Assembly: GCF_041361465.1 (NCBI RefSeq)
Contig: NZ_JBGKAC010000002.1
Span: 62,001 to 126,000 of the forward strand
DNA length: 64,000 nucleotides
From: Halobaculum sp. MBLA0143
Lineage (GTDB): Archaea > Halobacteriota > Halobacteria > Halobacteriales > Haloferacaceae
Direction: 5' to 3'
In this document: positions 3-7,833 of the stretch, one piece after another
Layout: each line of letters opens with the position of its first letter
Position numbering within the stretch: the stretch's first letter is position 1
Translations under genes and position numbers: made by a program
Notes under the pieces: generated by a model
Databases searched by the model: none
What the model saw: the letters and a program-made list of their open reading frames with translations, nothing else
Told to the model about the DNA's origin: nothing

Positions 3-305
3 GGGACGAGCACCGTCGAACTCACCGGCGAGAAGACCGGCTCCTACCCCGACGCGGTGGTGTTCGGAGTGAACCAAGCGAGAGGCGGGTTCACCGAACT
101 CGACGTGTTCCACACGCTCGACCCCGAGGCCCCGACCGGGATCGACTCGGACCTCCTGTTCGAGGGAGAACAGCCACGCGGCAGCGGCAGTCGGCAGATT
201 CCAGTCGGTCACTCGTACTACGTCAGTCTCCTGATCGACACGCGGGGTATCTCCGCCGACGAGGTGCTGATCGACGGGCTCGAGCTCACGGCCGATGCAG
301 TGTAA
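3..305 (+). CDS. C-terminal part of a DUF1102-type secreted protein (5'-truncated)
   Basis: The reading frame is open from the first bases of the window and ends in TAA at 303-305, so the gene begins outside. Its last third (a PVGHSYYVSLLIDTRG-type stretch, then an alternating hydrophobic strand) matches in position and pattern the end of the DUF1102 domain of the next gene (LGVGESVSVGVFFDTTG). It therefore looks like the first visible member of a run of at least four related exported proteins. DUF1102 proteins are archaeal surface or secreted proteins of unknown function. The 48-bp gap to the next gene holds a tRNA-like hairpin and no clear TATA box, which suggests one transcript. Confidence 0.7.
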   Translation, partial: GTSTVELTGEKTGSYPDAVVFGVNQARGGFTELDVFHTLDPEAPTGIDSDLLFEGEQPRGSGSRQIPVGHSYYVSLLIDTRGISADEVLIDGLELTADAV

Positions 306-307
306 CA

Positions 308-349
308 ACCCACGTTCGGCGTACAGCGGTTCGACTCCGCTGGTGGGTC
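308..349 (+). promoter_or_regulatory. tRNA acceptor/T-arm-like hairpin, copy 1 (t-element candidate)
   Basis: ACCCAC (308-313) pairs with GTGGGT (343-348). Directly inside the 3' strand is a T-arm: CAGCGG (324-329), loop TTCGACT (330-336), CCGCTG (337-342). The loop fits the TTCRANY rule of tRNA T-loops, and the two stems stack to 12 bp as in tRNA (7+5). A single unpaired base (C349) stands where a tRNA discriminator would be. There is no D-arm or anticodon arm. The next gene's ATG starts at 354, so a cut after the discriminator would leave an almost leaderless mRNA. Pairing is read directly; processing is inferred. Confidence 0.6.
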
Positions 350-353
350 TCGA

Positions 354-1577
354 ATGAACAGGCGAACGCTACTCGCCGCACTCGGCGCGGTCGGAGGAGT
401 CAGCGGCGTAATCGGCTCGGGTGCGTTCACCAGTGTCGTCGCCGAGCGGACGATCTCCGTCGAGACGGCCGCCGACGAGGACGCGCTGGTCGGACTCGAA
501 CCCATCGACACGGCGAACGGGCGAGCGTACGCCACGACCGCGGCCGGCGACCGGCTCGCGCTGGCGTTCGGCGCGACCGAGGCGGGTGGTAGCGGGCTGG
601 GGGCGGACTCGACCTACCAGCTCGACGACGTGTTCCGGGTGACGAACCGTGGGACACAACCGGTCTACGTCTGGGCGACGTTCGCGGGAGCAGACGAGTC
701 CGCGTTGGAGACGACGGGTCCGAACCCGGACGTGTACGTCTATCCGAACGGAGACGCCGGGGACGTGTTGCGCGACAGCGAGGACGACGTGTCGTACCTC
801 GGGGTCGGCGAGTCGGTCTCGGTCGGCGTGTTCTTCGACACCACGGGTGTCGCGGTTGGAGAGCTAGACCTGACGGTGACGATCAACGCTGCGGCGACGA
901 ACCCCGCTTCCGGTGCGGTCGTTGCCGGCGACGGGACGACGATCCCGGGGCCGACGGGCGGACTTGCGGCACACTGGCCACTGGATCGAGTCGGGGAAGG
1001 GGTCGCCGAGGACGTCGTCGGCGGAGCAGACGGGTCGGTTCCGGAGGCGGTGACGGCTGCGGCCGGCAAGAGTGGCGGTGCAGTCCAGTTCCCAGAGGAA
1101 GACCAGTTCGTCGAGACCACGGCACGTCTGGGTGTGGGCAGTCCGTTCTCGCTGGCTGTCTGGGCGAACGCGGCCGGGTTCGACCAGACCGAGTACCCGT
1201 TGGCCGTTTCGAAGTGGCAGCGCGCCAGGAACCGTGACTACCTGATCGGGTATCACGGTCCGGAGGGGCGACTGTACACACAGTTCAACCGAGAGCCGGA
1301 CGGCAACAAAGCGACGTTGTTCGGTCCGGAGCCCGAGACCGGCGTCTGGTACCACTGTGTGCTGACGTACGACAGATCCGGTCGCGGACGGTTCTACGTC
1401 GACGGCTCGGTGGTCGGGGAGACGCAGGGGCCGTTCGGCACGTCGAGTTCACAGTTCGTGATCGGGTCGAAGGACGGCGGCGGGAACTCGTGGCACGGAC
1501 GTGTCGAGGACGTTCGGCTGTACGATCGGGCACTCGATCCAGGAGAGGTGACGGCGCTGTACGACGCGACGAAGTGA
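354..1577 (+). CDS. Exported DUF1102-type protein with C-terminal LamG/concanavalin-like domain
   Basis: The 407-residue protein starts at ATG with a signal peptide of twin-arginine type (NRRTLLAALG, hydrophobic to about residue 27). Residues about 28-185 form a DUF1102-like beta domain (ISVETAADEDALVGLEP, VFRVTNRGTQPVYVWATF), as in the next two genes. Residues about 200-407 look like a LamG/concanavalin-A-like jelly roll, with AAHWPLD at the start, RFYVDGSVVGE near the middle and GRVEDVRLYDRAL near the end. Such domains bind sugars or proteins on cell surfaces. It is probably attached to or released from the cell surface; the ligand is unknown. It lies second in the run of four related genes and is preceded by the tRNA-like hairpin. 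Confidence 0.75.
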   Translation: MNRRTLLAALGAVGGVSGVIGSGAFTSVVAERTISVETAADEDALVGLEPIDTANGRAYATTAAGDRLALAFGATEAGGSGLGADSTYQLDDVFRVTNRGTQPVYVWATFAGADESALETTGPNPDVYVYPNGDAGDVLRDSEDDVSYLGVGESVSVGVFFDTTGVAVGELDLTVTINAAATNPASGAVVAGDGTTIPGPTGGLAAHWPLDRVGEGVAEDVVGGADGSVPEAVTAAAGKSGGAVQFPEEDQFVETTARLGVGSPFSLAVWANAAGFDQTEYPLAVSKWQRARNRDYLIGYHGPEGRLYTQFNREPDGNKATLFGPEPETGVWYHCVLTYDRSGRGRFYVDGSVVGETQGPFGTSSSQFVIGSKDGGGNSWHGRVEDVRLYDRALDPGEVTALYDATK

Positions 1578-1579
1578 CT

Positions 1580-1710
1580 GCCCACGCTGGTGTACGTGTC
1601 TCCACGTTCGGAGACACGACGCGGACTCCGTGGACGGCGTCTCCGGTTCGTGCCGGAGACCCCCGACACGGAGTCACCGTGTCGCGGCGGTTCGACTCCG
1701 CCGGTGGGTC
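1580..1710 (+). promoter_or_regulatory. tRNA-like hairpin element, copy 2 (expanded, multi-arm)
   Basis: Outer strands GCCCAC (1580-1585) and GTGGGT (1704-1709) pair with one G-U. The T-arm is CGGCGG (1685-1690), loop TTCGACT, CCGCCG (1698-1703), and C1710 sits at the discriminator position. Between the outer 5' strand and the T-arm lie 99 bases with three perfect hairpins: 1595-1603/1610-1618, 1639-1646/1653-1660 and 1664-1671/1677-1684. An alternative 9-bp pairing (1624-1632 with 1667-1675) excludes the third arm. A further hairpin, CCCC-GAGAA-GGGG (1712-1724), follows just before the start codon at 1735. This fills nearly the whole gap between the genes. Confidence 0.6.
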
Positions 1711-1734
1711 TCCCCGAGAAGGGGTAGTGTGAGT

Positions 1735-4104
1735 ATGCAACGACGCAAACTACTGATCGGAATCGGAACCGCAGTCGGCGCAGGAGCGGTTGGAACCGGT
1801 GCGTTCACCAGCGTCTCCGCAGAGCGTGACGTGACAGTGCAGGTGGCGGACGACGCGGACGCGCTGTTGGGCATCGAGACGGGTGACGGGCCGAACGCGA
1901 GTGCGTTCGCCGAGACGACCACCGACGGGACGGTCGCACTGGACTTCTCGGAGACGAGTGCTGGCGGCTCCGGGCTCGGGACGGACTCGGAGTACCAGTT
2001 CGACGACATCCTGCGGCTCACGAACCAGGGGACACAGACGGTGTACGCCTGGGTGACGTTCGACTTCTCGGACGCAGACGACGACCTCACGAGAGGAGAC
2101 GTGTACTTCTACCCGCAGTCGAACGCCGACCGGGAGCTCAACGACGGCGAGAACAGCGTCTTGACGCTCCCCGTCGGGGAGTCAGTGTCGTTGGGACTGT
2201 TCGTGGACACGGAGGCAGTGAGTGGTGAACAGTCTCTCTCGACGACGATCAACGCCGACGTGGACGTTCCTAGTGGCTCACAGCCACGAGACGGGAGCGG
2301 TGAAGACGCAGCGGTCGTCACTGAAGATCGGAACGACGGAGAGTTCGACTCCATTCAGTCGGCCGTAGAGGAAGTCGACGGAACGACTGTATTCGTGGAG
2401 CCGGGAACTTTCGAGGAGTCCGTCGTCGTCGACAAACCGATCACGATCAGAGGGACGACAGACCCCAAGAACGGCGATGCGGCAACTGTCGTCGGGCAGG
2501 ATTCGGACACGTTCACCGTCAAGTCGGACGACGTGACGATCAGCAGATTGGACGTTCAGAACTCGGGTGAGGGCCTCGACACCAGTCCCGATGACAACGC
2601 GGGCGTTGTTGGCGTACACGTCGAGTCTGGCAACACCGGTGTCTCGGTGGTCGACAACGTCATCACCGGACTCGGAACCGAAAACGACGACGCGAATCCG
2701 ATGGCAGTGTACGCGGAGGGGGCGACGAGTGGTGTCAGGGTCGAGAACAACCAGATCGCCCAGTTGAGCGGGACCGACGAAGATCAGGGTGCCGTTCAGG
2801 CGATTCACATCAACTCGCAGCGTAAGCAGGAGGGAATCGACAGTGGAATCGACGACGTGCGCGTCGCCAACAACACGATCACTGACGTGTTAGACACGCG
2901 TTCGGCAGTCGCCGTCCGATTCAACGGTGACGTGTCGGGTGAGATCGTCGGCAACACGATCAGTGACCTGAACACCGAAGGCGACATTCCCGGAACGAAC
3001 GACCCCGGTGGGTTCACGCAGGTGCTGGCCCTGTCGAAGGGCGGCAACAGCACAACGGGACCATCGGATGTGACGATCAAAGGAAACGACATCTCGAACA
3101 TCGAGACGACGACACCCGGCAACTTCGCCCCGCCCGTTCACCTCATCGTCACAGGCTCTGCGTCGAACGTGTCGGTCACCGACAACACGTTCAGTGCAGA
3201 TAGTCCGGACGTAGAGCAGTTCGTGCTCGACACGGGTGGTGTGCTCGACCTGAACGCGGTGGCCGAGGCCAACACGTTCGAGCCGTCCGTTCAGGTGACA
3301 GAGAACGTGTTGTTCCCGGGTGACCTCCGACTCGTCTCCGGCGGCGGCAGCGCACTCCAGGACGCAGTCGACGCCGCGAGTGCTGGAGAGACGCTCGCCG
3401 TCGGAGCGTCCGACACGGCGTACGACGCGGTGTCGGTCGACAAGTCGCTCACGATCCAATCTGTATTCGGTCGGCCGACAATCGAAGCGACAGGAAGCCG
3501 TGTCGAGATCCAGGCACCAGACGTGCGGTTCGAAGGGTTCGACATCGACCTGCAGGAGGGCAAGCCAGTTTACGTCAACCCCGGGGAGGGACTGGTGTTC
3601 CGGAACAACGAGGTCTCGATCTCACCGGCGAGCCCGCACGGAATCCGTATCGACGCCGCCGGGACCGGCGAGACAGTCGTGTCGAACAACGTGTTCGACC
3701 AACGGTCGTCGGATCAAGAAAATCCACAGGCAATCCTGATCAGCGATGGCTCGAACTACCGGATCGAGAACAACGTTCTCGACGGGAACACGAAGGGACA
3801 GGCTGTGCTGGTCAGCACCCAGGGGCGCCCGACGACGGAGTTCGACATTCTGGACAACGTCGTCAGCGGTTGGGGGACACCCGTGGTCCTGTTCGAGGAG
3901 CCGGTGGACGGTGACATTGACCAGGGATCGATCCGCGAAAACGACATCAGCGGGTTCAGTGGTGACGACGCGATTCTCGCGGTCGAACGGAACGGCGACG
4001 GGTTCGAGGACTTGAACGGCGAGAGCACTGTGTCGGGTCAGGAGACTGCCCTCTCGGAGGACAACGGTGGTGTCTCGGCCAGTGTCAAGGTAGGTAGCAA
4101 CTGA
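1735..4104 (+). CDS. Exported DUF1102-type protein with parallel beta-helix region
   Basis: The ATG at 1735 is chosen because the N-terminus (MQRRKLLIGIGTAVGAGAVG) matches those of the flanking paralogues; an upstream in-frame ATG at 1630 would add 35 basic residues read from the structured leader. The protein has 789 residues: a Tat-like signal peptide to about 28, a DUF1102-like domain to about 185, then about 600 residues of repeated strands rich in Asn (NNVITG, NNQIA, NNTITDV, GNTISD, DNTFS). These are typical of right-handed parallel beta-helix (pectate-lyase or NosD-like) folds. No catalytic motif was recognised. It is probably a large extracellular adhesive or carbohydrate-related protein. 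Confidence 0.75.
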   Translation: MQRRKLLIGIGTAVGAGAVGTGAFTSVSAERDVTVQVADDADALLGIETGDGPNASAFAETTTDGTVALDFSETSAGGSGLGTDSEYQFDDILRLTNQGTQTVYAWVTFDFSDADDDLTRGDVYFYPQSNADRELNDGENSVLTLPVGESVSLGLFVDTEAVSGEQSLSTTINADVDVPSGSQPRDGSGEDAAVVTEDRNDGEFDSIQSAVEEVDGTTVFVEPGTFEESVVVDKPITIRGTTDPKNGDAATVVGQDSDTFTVKSDDVTISRLDVQNSGEGLDTSPDDNAGVVGVHVESGNTGVSVVDNVITGLGTENDDANPMAVYAEGATSGVRVENNQIAQLSGTDEDQGAVQAIHINSQRKQEGIDSGIDDVRVANNTITDVLDTRSAVAVRFNGDVSGEIVGNTISDLNTEGDIPGTNDPGGFTQVLALSKGGNSTTGPSDVTIKGNDISNIETTTPGNFAPPVHLIVTGSASNVSVTDNTFSADSPDVEQFVLDTGGVLDLNAVAEANTFEPSVQVTENVLFPGDLRLVSGGGSALQDAVDAASAGETLAVGASDTAYDAVSVDKSLTIQSVFGRPTIEATGSRVEIQAPDVRFEGFDIDLQEGKPVYVNPGEGLVFRNNEVSISPASPHGIRIDAAGTGETVVSNNVFDQRSSDQENPQAILISDGSNYRIENNVLDGNTKGQAVLVSTQGRPTTEFDILDNVVSGWGTPVVLFEEPVDGDIDQGSIRENDISGFSGDDAILAVERNGDGFEDLNGESTVSGQETALSEDNGGVSASVKVGSN

Positions 4105-4120
4105 CACGAGCAACATCACG

Positions 4121-4160
4121 ACCCACGCTGGCGCACGGCGGTTCGACTCCGTCGGTGGGC
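4121..4160 (+). promoter_or_regulatory. tRNA acceptor/T-arm-like hairpin, copy 3
   Basis: CCCAC (4122-4126) pairs with GTGGG (4155-4159). The T-arm is CGGCGG (4136-4141), loop TTCGACT (4142-4148), CCGTCG (4149-4154), where a G-T wobble replaces a pair of copy 2. A second hairpin TCCCC-GTCTC-GGGGA (4162-4176) follows; its loop differs from copy 2 (GAGAA) while the stem is kept. The start codon of the next gene is at 4185. Loop bases are identical in all three copies. Confidence 0.6.
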
Positions 4161-4184
4161 GTCCCCGTCTCGGGGAAGACTGAC

Positions 4185-5981
4185 ATGCAACGACGCAAAC
4201 TCCTACTCGGAATGGGAACGGCAGCCGGTGCGGCCGGAGCGGTCGGCTCCGGCGCGTTCACCAGCGTGCGCGCACAGCGTGACGTGTCGGTACAGGTCGC
4301 AGACGACAGTGACGCTCTGTTGAGCCTCGAACCTGGCACGGGCCCGAACGCGAACGCGTTCGCCACGGTCTCCGACGGGACCGTGGGTCTCGACTTCAGT
4401 TCGACGGACACCGGCGGGTCGGGTCTCGGCACGGACTCCACGTACCGGTTCGACGGGCTGTTGCAGGTGCGGAACCAGGGGACACAGTCGATCTTCCTGT
4501 TCGTGCGGGTCTCCGGCGGCGTGTCGAACGACGAACTGTACTTCTACCCGGACAGTGACCCGACGGTCCAACTGCGTGATCGAGCCAACGAGGTAGTGGA
4601 GCTGACTCCGGGGGAGGCGCAGACTGTCGGCGCGTTCGTCGACACGAGCGCGCTGGAGAGTGACGTGACCGCGACGGCGACGTTCAACGCGACGGCCGAG
4701 CGTCCCGACGAGAGCTTCACCGCGGGCGAGACGCCACAGGACGCAGTGCTGGTCAGCCGCCAGTCTGGGCGTGGCGACTTCGACGACATCCAGCCGGCGG
4801 TCGACGCGATCCAGGACGGCTCCGTACAGAAGTCGGCGATCCAGGTCGACCCTGGACGGTACGCGACGGACGGCCCGGTCGTCGTCGGCGACGTGACCGA
4901 CCTCCGTCTCCGCGGCGACGGCTCCGGGAACGACCCGGGGTCGAACACCGTCCTCGAAGACCAGGTGGAGGTCCGCGGCGGTGCCGACTCCGTCACTCTG
5001 CAGGACCTTCGGGTGACTGGCGCCGAAGGCGGCAACTCCGACACGGGCGACGGTGTGTTCACCGTCGGGACCACGAACTCGGTCTCGGCCGTCACGCTCG
5101 AGAACGTCGCCGTCGTGGACAACCGGCAGGCGGGACTCTCACTCCAGTCCGTCGAGCGGCTCGATGTCCGCAACAGCGTGATCGACGGGAACGGCGGCTC
5201 CGGGATCGACGCCAGCGGAATCTCCGGACGTATCGAGTTCACGCGGATCCGGAACAACGGCGGTAGTGGCGTCGACGTCGACGATTTCGGGGGCGGCTCC
5301 GAGCTGGAGTTGTACGACGTCCTCGTGGAGGGCAACGAGCGGCTCGGCGTCGACGTGTTCGGTGACGACGTCGGCTCCGTAACGGTGAGCGAGTCGGTGA
5401 TCGACGACAACGGCGGAACGGGTCTCGCCGTCGGGACGGGGTACGCCGACGGGCAGATCTCCGCCGTGGAGGTCACCGGCGTGTCCGTCAGCGACAACGG
5501 CGACAGCGGCCTGATCGTGTTCGGCGACTCGGCGTCCGATGTGACGGTGCAGAACGTGGAGGCGTCGAACAACGGTGCCAACGGGATCGACCTGAACGGC
5601 GTGGCGTTCGACACCCCGGTCGTCGAGCGCGTGACCGCCGACGGAAACGACGGCACCGGCGTCGTCCTCGGTAACCAGTTCGCCGGGGCGGTCGCCAAGG
5701 GCCAGATCAGACGAGCGTCGGTGGACGGGAACGGTGGCGCGGGCGGGTTCTCCGGTGTCGCCGTCTTCGACGGCGCCGCCACGGGGACCAACGTCGCCGT
5801 GAGCAACTCGAACGTGATCGACAACGCCGGCTTCGGTGTGTCGACGGACGACACCGACGGCGGCACCGAGGTGCAGCTCTCGAACGTCTTCCTCGATGAC
5901 AACGGGACCGGCACCTCACAGGGCGTCGCCGGTGGGACCGCCGGAGCCCCCGTCTCGGGCGTCGGTGCCGACGGGAACTGA
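4185..5981 (+). CDS. Exported DUF1102-type protein with parallel beta-helix region
   Basis: The start at 4185 gives MQRRKLLLGMGTAAGAAGAV, almost the same signal peptide as the upstream paralogue; an in-frame ATG at 4155 lies inside the hairpin element. The product has 598 residues: Tat-like signal, DUF1102-like domain (to about 175), then repeated short strands with Asn/Asp-Gly turns (NSVIDGNGGSGIDASG, DDNGGTGLAVG, NNGANGIDLNG) predicted as a right-handed beta-helix. The repeats are shorter and more Gly-rich than in the preceding gene, so this is not a simple recent duplication. It is the last gene of the run and converges on a subtilase gene. The substrate is unknown. Confidence 0.75.
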   Translation: MQRRKLLLGMGTAAGAAGAVGSGAFTSVRAQRDVSVQVADDSDALLSLEPGTGPNANAFATVSDGTVGLDFSSTDTGGSGLGTDSTYRFDGLLQVRNQGTQSIFLFVRVSGGVSNDELYFYPDSDPTVQLRDRANEVVELTPGEAQTVGAFVDTSALESDVTATATFNATAERPDESFTAGETPQDAVLVSRQSGRGDFDDIQPAVDAIQDGSVQKSAIQVDPGRYATDGPVVVGDVTDLRLRGDGSGNDPGSNTVLEDQVEVRGGADSVTLQDLRVTGAEGGNSDTGDGVFTVGTTNSVSAVTLENVAVVDNRQAGLSLQSVERLDVRNSVIDGNGGSGIDASGISGRIEFTRIRNNGGSGVDVDDFGGGSELELYDVLVEGNERLGVDVFGDDVGSVTVSESVIDDNGGTGLAVGTGYADGQISAVEVTGVSVSDNGDSGLIVFGDSASDVTVQNVEASNNGANGIDLNGVAFDTPVVERVTADGNDGTGVVLGNQFAGAVAKGQIRRASVDGNGGAGGFSGVAVFDGAATGTNVAVSNSNVIDNAGFGVSTDDTDGGTEVQLSNVFLDDNGTGTSQGVAGGTAGAPVSGVGADGN

Positions 5982-6096: not shown

Positions 6097-7833
6097 CTAC
6101 CCTTGCAGGAACGGCTCGATAGCGGCCAGCACGTCGATGTGGCCGTTACCGCGGTGGTCGGCCGGGTCGAGACGACCGGAGACCCGCCCGGGAGCCGAGG
6201 GGCTGTCGCCGTCGAACACGGAGTCCGTCGCCGCGTTGGGGGTCCCGACGCTCGCGGCGGCCGTCTGCCCGGCACGACCGACGGGGAGCTGTTCTGCAGA
6301 CTCTTCGATGGTGGTCCGGACCGCCTCCGGCGTCGGATCGTCGCCGAATCCGTACAGGAGGGCCGCCAGTCCGGCCACGTTCGGCGCAGAGAAGGACGTG
6401 CCGGCAGTGAAAGTGAAGTTCGGTGAGAGGCTGCCGCCTCTCCTGTCTCCAGTGAACGCGGTCGTGTACAGGAGGTCGAAAATTGGATCACCGGCCTCGA
6501 TCGCGTCGATGGACGCGAACGCGCCGGAGTCGAAGTTCCCGCCCCCGGCCGTCACGTCGACGGCCGTCCCGCCGGCGATGGTCGGATCGCTCGTCCCGTA
6601 GTTCGAGTACTGGGCCGGTTCGTATTCCGGGAGTTCTGTCTGGAAGAATACCCCGTCGCCGTCGGCGGACCAGCCGTAGCCGATGGGGCCGGTGGCACCG
6701 ACACTCACGAACCCCTCCGCGTTCGCCGGGAACGTTACCGGCGCAGCGTCGATCTCGGGGTCTTGGAGCCTGGGCACCTGTCTGTCGTCGGACAACGGGA
6801 TCCCGAGCCCGACACCGCTGTTGCCGGCCGACGCGATCGGGAGTGTGCCCTCCGAGAGCGCGTACTGCGCGGCGCTGGTGTACATACCCCCGAAGAAGGC
6901 GATCGTCCTGAGCGGGACCGCGATGAGAGGGCTCGGAAGCGACGGGAGCGGTCCCTCCGGGATCGGCACCAGTGGCGGCAGTCCGAGACTCAGGTTGAGC
7001 ACGTCACAGCCGGAGCCCCTGACCTCTCGCGGCATCGAGTCGTCGACGACTTCGCCGACCGTGACGTTCACCGTCTCGTCTCTGGGGGTCGCTCCGGCGA
7101 CCATCGCGGCGAGGATGTCTCCCGTCGCGGCACCACCCTCTGCGGGGAACACCCGTAGGTCGACAATTTCTGCACCAGGGGCGATCCCGGCGACACCAGT
7201 GCCGTTGTCGGCCGCGGCCGCAGTGCCGGCACACTCCGTCCCGTGAGGATCCGTGACCGGTCCAGGGCCCGTGCCGTCCCCGGTGAAGTTGTACGACGGT
7301 CCCTCGAACACGCCGTCGTCGTTCGGCTCACCGGAACCCGTCAGCACCTTGGAGCCTCTGGGGAGATCGGGGTGTTCCGGTACACCGTCGCCCGCCTTCG
7401 CACCGATCACACCGGAGTCGACGATTCCAATTCGAGCACCCGAGCCCGCGTCTGCCGGGATCTGTCCGGCGTTCTGTTCGAGCTTGTCCCACTGTTGGAT
7501 CGACTGGGGGTCGAGTCCGTCCGGCTTCGCCACCTCGTCGGGCGACAACTGTGTCACCGGATCGTCGATCTGGATCACGCGGTCCCGGACGAACTCCGCT
7601 TCCGCCGGCATCCACGACTCGTCACCCTGGACGACGACGTAGCCGATCTCCTCGCTCAGGTCGTGGACGATCGTGTAGTTAGAACCGGACATCTCCCCCA
7701 TCGACACGGTGTCGGCGTCGGGGTCGTCGTCGACGCTAACGATGAACCGGTCGTCGCTCGTCTCCATCGAGACCGATCGCGTCGAGAAGTTCCCAGACGG
7801 ACCGTTCACACCGCCGAGCTGTCTGTCACTCAC
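6097..7833 (-). CDS. Subtilisin-like serine protease (S8 family)
   Basis: The 578-residue protein has the S8 catalytic triad: Asp139 in IGIVDSG, His197 in DPHGTECAGT and Ser480 in FTAGTSFSAP. The oxyanion Asn is at about 338 (ASAGNSG). Residues about 28-95 resemble an I9-type propeptide. Haloarchaeal relatives (halolysins) are normally Tat-exported, but no signal peptide is seen: the GTG at 7833 is the first usable start after an in-frame stop upstream. An AT-rich patch (GATAATTACT) about 25-35 bases before the GTG fits a promoter for a leaderless mRNA. It converges on the DUF1102 run and could process those proteins; that is inference. Confidence 0.9.
   Translation of the reverse strand: MSDRQLGGVNGPSGNFSTRSVSMETSDDRFIVSVDDDPDADTVSMGEMSGSNYTIVHDLSEEIGYVVVQGDESWMPAEAEFVRDRVIQIDDPVTQLSPDEVAKPDGLDPQSIQQWDKLEQNAGQIPADAGSGARIGIVDSGVIGAKAGDGVPEHPDLPRGSKVLTGSGEPNDDGVFEGPSYNFTGDGTGPGPVTDPHGTECAGTAAAADNGTGVAGIAPGAEIVDLRVFPAEGGAATGDILAAMVAGATPRDETVNVTVGEVVDDSMPREVRGSGCDVLNLSLGLPPLVPIPEGPLPSLPSPLIAVPLRTIAFFGGMYTSAAQYALSEGTLPIASAGNSGVGLGIPLSDDRQVPRLQDPEIDAAPVTFPANAEGFVSVGATGPIGYGWSADGDGVFFQTELPEYEPAQYSNYGTSDPTIAGGTAVDVTAGGGNFDSGAFASIDAIEAGDPIFDLLYTTAFTGDRRGGSLSPNFTFTAGTSFSAPNVAGLAALLYGFGDDPTPEAVRTTIEESAEQLPVGRAGQTAAASVGTPNAATDSVFDGDSPSAPGRVSGRLDPADHRGNGHIDVLAAIEPFLQG

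Follow-up and report, generated by a model that had tools for sequence, protein, structure and literature searches.

Tandem genes for exported proteins open the 64,000-nucleotide (nt) stretch of Halobaculum sp. MBLA0143 DNA analysed here (the window; G000:C2:62001-126000, on a replicon of 589 kb in a haloarchaeal genome whose main contig has 2.99 Mb), and the gaps between them contain hairpins that resemble the stacked acceptor and T-arm of transfer RNA (tRNA). These hairpins are a haloarchaeal RNA element that is absent from Rfam. Their fold is conserved, they occupy a characteristic position in front of a characteristic kind of gene, and their architecture is that of the t-element, a tRNA-like processing signal, upstream of 5S ribosomal RNA (rRNA). 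We consider it likely that they are messenger RNA (mRNA) t-elements that punctuate operons of proteins exported by twin-arginine translocation (Tat) and resembling TasA and Tat fimbriae.

Fold and conservation of the element

A T-arm with the loop TTCGACT and an outer CCCAC/GTGGG stem occur in each of the three gaps (306-353, 1578-1734 and 4105-4184), as follows.

308..348, plus strand: t-element copy 1 (5' acceptor arm 308-313, GG 318-319, T-stem 324-329/337-342, T-loop 330-336, 3' acceptor arm 343-348)
1580..1709, plus strand: t-element copy 2, long-insert multi-arm form (5' arm 1580-1585, with CCCAC at 1581-1585; GG 1589-1590)
1685-1709, plus strand: 3' half of copy 2 (T-stem 1685-1690/1698-1703, T-loop 1691-1697, 3' arm 1704-1709)
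1712..1725, plus strand: CCCC...GGGG hairpin between copy 2 and the start codon, overlapping a Shine-Dalgarno-like stretch
4121..4160, plus strand: t-element copy 3 (5' arm 4121-4126, GG 4130-4131, T-stem 4136-4141/4149-4154, T-loop 4142-4148, 3' arm 4155-4160)

The initial annotation of this DNA had correctly described three hairpins between tandem genes with a common loop and outer stem. The stacked helix of 12 base pairs that it attributed to every copy is found in copy 1, which combines ACCCAC/GTGGGT with a CAGCGG/CCGCTG T-stem around an insert of 10 nt. Copy 3 forms 11 pairs, as the outermost A.C of ACCCAC/GTGGGC is unpaired and the T-stem CGGCGG/CCGTCG contains one G.U (insert, 9 nt), and its discriminator place is base 4161, not 4160. 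Copy 2, described as a simple minihelix, is a long-insert variant whose 99 nt fold into extra hairpin arms (folding-energy z-score -5.4). Nor do the copies number three: a search of the same genome with the 3' half of the element, allowing up to three mismatches, returned eight near-perfect copies, all within C2 47,032-66,159, all on the plus strand and each directly before a Tat-signal gene, and zero matches to the reversed pattern. Together with the covariance-model scores (57.0 bits for copy 1 and 60.8 bits for copy 3, both part of the model's training set), the eight cores on one strand place copies 1 and 3 far beyond chance.

At its 5' end the element has (A)CCCAC, and two to four bases further on comes the GG. 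An insert of varying length then leads to a 6-base-pair T-stem with the loop TTCGA(C/T)T, the second T-strand, GTGGG(T) and one base, usually followed by T(C/T)CCCC...GGGG and the start codon; total insert length ranges from 8 to more than 100 nt. Among 49 aligned short-insert copies, 95.1% of the pair cells are paired (87.0% in shuffled data), and two-sided changes, seen at 10 of the 12 pairs, number 48 compared with 10.3 in shuffles, counts that ignore phylogenetic relatedness. None of 500 shuffles reached any of the covariation measures, and slid registers gave at most 64%. The acceptor variants CCCGC/GCGGG, CCCAT/ATGGG, TCCAC/GTGGA and CTCAC/GTGAG appear in different genomes. The invariance of the T-arm is partly built in, because the collecting pattern fixed part of it; the 5' arm lay outside the pattern in the searches of the same genome and of 60 relatives. 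The initial annotation had staked its proposal on conservation of pairing in related genomes, and this conservation held when tested. One copy with a doubtful short-range 5' arm, at C2:61645, was excluded from the model.

All 35 of the short-insert copies collected by a pattern that did not demand it have an unpaired GG at insert offset 2-4 (the expected fraction is about 0.33), and in the same set 46 of 47 copies with inserts of up to 40 nt retain it. The dinucleotide is placed like G18G19 of tRNA and would fit the contact between G18G19 and the T-loop. The elements have the stacked acceptor and T-arm of about 12 pairs and the TTCRANY T-loop expected of a t-element. CCA is an anti-determinant of RNase Z, and in none of 140 copies does it directly follow the discriminator; a CCC-N3-9-GGG motif lies within 30 nt after the element in 97 of the 140. 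A tRNA gene was considered and rejected, as neither ARAGORN nor Rfam detected a full cloverleaf and the best tRNA-Sec score was 18.8 bits against a cut-off of 47; Rfam 15 has no family that matches the element at gathering score.

The compensatory changes also bear on two other explanations. The elements could be recombination or integration sites acting at the DNA level, with the tandem genes as cassettes. Tandem arrays, some of them on a secondary replicon, plasmids or viral contigs, would suit such sites, as would the T-arm-like sequence, since T-arms of tRNA genes are common integrase targets. However, the changes preserve RNA pairing while the sequence varies, the inserts between the arms vary freely, the orientation follows that of the downstream gene (see below) and the window array has no copy after its last gene, which makes this explanation highly improbable. 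We give almost no credence to the idea that gene duplication carried the elements along as passive remnants. Although the copies in this genome precede paralogous genes with similar signal peptides, covariation is already seen, changes being compensated and inserts varying freely in many genera, and the elements can be lost, because they are absent at some junctions of the same cluster (in this genome after the last gene of the array, 4185-5981, and at the junction before C2:45115).

The 5S rRNA t-element

The covariance model R1, trained on intergenic copies only, also matched an element in the spacer between 23S and 5S rRNA when run on whole genomes. In seven spacer loci whose 23S and 5S genes were checked with Rfam, six elements scored 45-50 bits and that of the window genome 25.3 bits, and in all seven the element ends two bases before the Rfam 5S start. 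The spacer sequences have the form ACCGAC...GTCGGC, one base, then TTAAGG or similar, and differ from the mRNA form by compensated arm changes (C-G to G-C, also A-T). The TTAAGG-type sequence, which we take to be the mature 5' end of 5S rRNA, is in most loci one base from the element.

According to two reports (PMC4326828, PMC3296008), tRNase Z processes a tRNA-like structure upstream of 5S rRNA in Haloferax volcanii, and a CRISPR RNA (crRNA) placed between t-elements is released by them in vivo. The primer itele1 given in the first of these (PMC4326828), ACCGATATTGGTATGGCAACC, can be aligned with the spacer elements over their 5' half, including the GG. The spacer element is the known H. volcanii t-element, which the initial annotation overlooked when it stated that it knew of no such intergenic t-element in haloarchaea; its idea of a tRNA acceptor/T-arm and RNase Z t-element is strongly supported by the detection of the spacer element with the same covariance model. 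The intergenic elements are identical in architecture with the 5S rRNA t-element. As papers citing the original work (Hoelzle et al. 2008 RNA 14:928; Hoelzle et al. 2012 Biochimie 94:940) describe the latter, the two share the arms, the GG, the 6-base-pair T-stem, the T-loop and the distance to the released 5' end. However, the H. volcanii element frees a ribosomal RNA from the rRNA operon, whereas elements of the window type sit in tandem in protein-coding operons, with C-G instead of G-C at alignment pair 4:43 and inserts of up to more than 100 nt. The 2012 survey of H. volcanii may already list t-elements at protein genes.

Distribution and genomic context

Matches with up to two mismatches were present in 41 of 60 relatives, and the core, with one mismatch, in 73 of 195 genomes and 32 of 65 genera of the class, a few of these matches being 5S-spacer copies (acceptor ending GTCGG); the reversed-pattern control gave none among the genomes listed. 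Culturable carriers include Halobaculum gomorrense, Halorubrum saccharovorum and Halolamina pelagica. An exact scan of the whole GTDB for the complete short-insert form returned 68 stretches, 64 haloarchaeal and four from Lactobacillaceae. The architecture was found 127 times in 824 kb of fetched loci and 0 times in the reversed sequence, figures that do not measure prevalence as the loci were fetched by motif. In a phylum-wide model search with strict filters, the matches listed all fell in the order of the window genome, and none in the genomes of other orders shown.

Prophage-like regions of Lactobacillaceae carry the same minimal fold, CCCAC-TCTGG-...-T-arm-GTGGG, near repressor, ImmA-like and integrase genes (L083:1163-1205, minus strand; L086:5154-5196 and 3806-3848, minus strand; L112:3611-3653; L142:1440-1483, minus strand). 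It is also found on viral contigs L182-L188, starting 6-13 nt past a stop codon, and R1 scored these Lactobacillaceae and viral-contig folds at 37-52 bits. That this fold follows stop codons in prophage regions of Lactobacillaceae suggests that it was invented more than once or exchanged.

A Tat motif opens the gene after the element in 66 of the 72 copies of the first set, and the same holds for 26 of the 30 loci outside 5S spacers that the covariance model detected. The downstream proteins are of the DUF1102/TafE type, as in the window, or have the SipW-cognate signal that marks TasA-like proteins; plasmid annotation calls such genes SipW-dependent. The window genes of this group are the following.

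3..305, plus strand: 3' end of an upstream DUF1102/TafE-type Tat gene (start outside the window, at about C2:61709; stop codon 2 nt 5' of copy 1)
354..1577, plus strand: Tat-signal gene with a TafE-like N-terminus, DUF1102 domain and Laminin_G_3 domain
1735..4104, plus strand: Tat-signal gene with a DUF1102/TafE-like N-terminus and NosD-like repeats
4185..5981, plus strand: Tat-signal gene with a DUF1102/TafE-like N-terminus and a right-handed beta helix

Pfam DUF1102 scores 22.5-25.7 bits in the downstream genes, above its gathering score of 22.2, and the window proteins do not reach the NCBIfam equivalog cut-offs for TafA, TafC and TafE (best 53-65 bits against a TafE cut-off of 155). They thus appear to be related to TafA, TafC and TafE only below the equivalog level, and the downstream products presumably form surface fibres. 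A subtilase-family protease gene (6097-7833, minus strand) follows the fibre operon in convergent orientation.

With gene positions taken from a simple, heuristic codon-bias gene caller, about 129 of the 146 elements are flanked by co-directional genes on both sides, a median of 36 nt past the stop codon, and none lies inside a gene. The element has the orientation of the downstream gene in about 140 of the 146, and the start codon is near, mostly 20-30 nt away. A promoter of its own for each gene was rejected as an explanation, as neither an AT-rich nor a TATA-like signal precedes the intercistronic copies; a TATA-like box is present in the 100 nt before the element in only 4 of 121. The short distance to the preceding stop codon would also suit a transcription terminator or 3'-end stabiliser serving the preceding gene only. 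We regard this as very unlikely, since CCCC rather than a T run follows the element, copies also stand before genes with no co-directional gene upstream, and little space is left for a promoter between the element and the next gene, a space that was not scanned for promoters.

Proposed processing and its significance

The long mRNAs are probably cut into gene-sized pieces, because the elements match the tRNase Z substrate that releases 5S rRNA; cleavage, the enzyme and an effect on expression are inferences. The genome contains an RNase Z gene. In the proposed mechanism, the broken helix of 12 steps would mimic the stacked acceptor and T-arm of tRNA, the TTCGA(C/T)T loop its T-loop, and the GG the D-loop G18G19 that dock on the T-loop. 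tRNase Z would recognise this fold and cut one base past the 3' arm, after the discriminator base; by the 5S rule the predicted cuts are at 349/350, 1710/1711 and 4161/4162, and a further cut at the 5' arm may come from RNase P, as it does in engineered t-elements. With the element just past one gene's stop codon and closely followed by the next gene's ribosome-binding hairpin, processing would yield shorter mRNAs with defined 5' ends. The upstream mRNA would end in, or just before, a stable hairpin, and the downstream mRNA would have a short leader, which after the cut at 349/350 would consist of TCGA before the ATG at 354. Our guess, drawn from bacterial fimbrial operons, is that cleavage might set unequal amounts of subunits. 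Ribosome binding may in addition be controlled by the CCCC/GGGG hairpin next to the element.

Several observations weigh against this reading. Copies 1 and 3 fold no better than shuffled sequence (z-scores -1.4/-1.6 and 0.1/-0.5), so that the case for the elements rests on comparison and not on energy, and when copy 1 is folded in its context, a different structure has the lowest energy. The outermost pair, at the position of 1:72, is formed in just 26 of the 49 aligned copies. The 5S element of the window genome (L151:1625-1664, minus strand) keeps the arms and the GG and has the non-standard loop ATCGTTC and a low score. In gene-centred tests the short-insert model found an element directly upstream in only about 8 of 30 SipW-type and 3 of 30 TafE-type loci; therefore, the element is not universal in these protein families. 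Finally, 11 of the 146 elements have an opposite-strand gene upstream. As these copies stand at the head of an operon or before a single gene, separation of cistrons is not the sole role, and definition of the 5' end or translation may also matter.

Such copies would also be expected if the element stayed uncut and served as a 5' leader structure governing the translation or stability of the gene behind it, for instance by way of the CCCC/GGGG hairpin over the Shine-Dalgarno region, and the frequent CCC-N3-9-GGG motif and the close start codon point the same way. However, a leader structure leaves unexplained why the element should be identical with the one that serves to process 5S rRNA, an RNA that is not translated, and we consider it unlikely.

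We know of few mRNA-processing signals in archaea. On balance we incline, if only a little, towards the broader view that haloarchaea use free-standing t-elements as general mRNA punctuation, with tRNA-processing enzymes splitting polycistronic transcripts for surface fibres, and some from plasmids or viruses, into gene-sized mRNAs. Archaea would then have their own equivalent of the tRNA punctuation of mitochondria, but without the tRNAs. If the elements are cut, a tRNA enzyme shapes protein-coding transcripts across a whole archaeal class, the exact cut sites are predicted, and there is an explanation of how long fibre operons could yield unequal amounts of subunits. Haloarchaeal genetics, in which t-elements already work around crRNAs, would also gain a short ready-made element for splitting operons.

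Cleavage between the fimbrial genes of the Escherichia coli pap operon alters subunit stoichiometry, but that processing is bacterial and involves RNase E and unrelated hairpins. The downstream proteins of window-type elements match those of Tat-fimbria (Taf) and SipW/TasA-type operons in their TafE/TafC/TafA N-termini, DUF1102 or SipW-cognate signal, and in the literature found no RNA element is described for such fibre operons. In plant and animal mitochondria, t-elements or tRNAs between genes mark mRNA ends and are cut by RNase P and RNase Z, as set out in PMC4125048. This punctuation is organellar and derives from tRNA genes or larger tRNA-like folds.

The device is not confined to fibre genes, because at least two of the four elements on the 226-kb contig G001:C4 (L061:3509-3550, 4198-4240 and 4714-4753; L057:3404-3442) precede genes without a Tat signal. 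On a metagenomic viral contig an element lies upstream of an integrase-like gene (L189:1506-1544, minus strand). In the tailed haloviruses HSTV-2 (L270:2470-2525) and HCTV-6 (L271:2470-2525), a complete element whose insert forms a hairpin lies close to a tRNA-Gln gene; a hypothetical open reading frame (gene 68) is annotated across the element in HSTV-2, and none is annotated there in HCTV-6.

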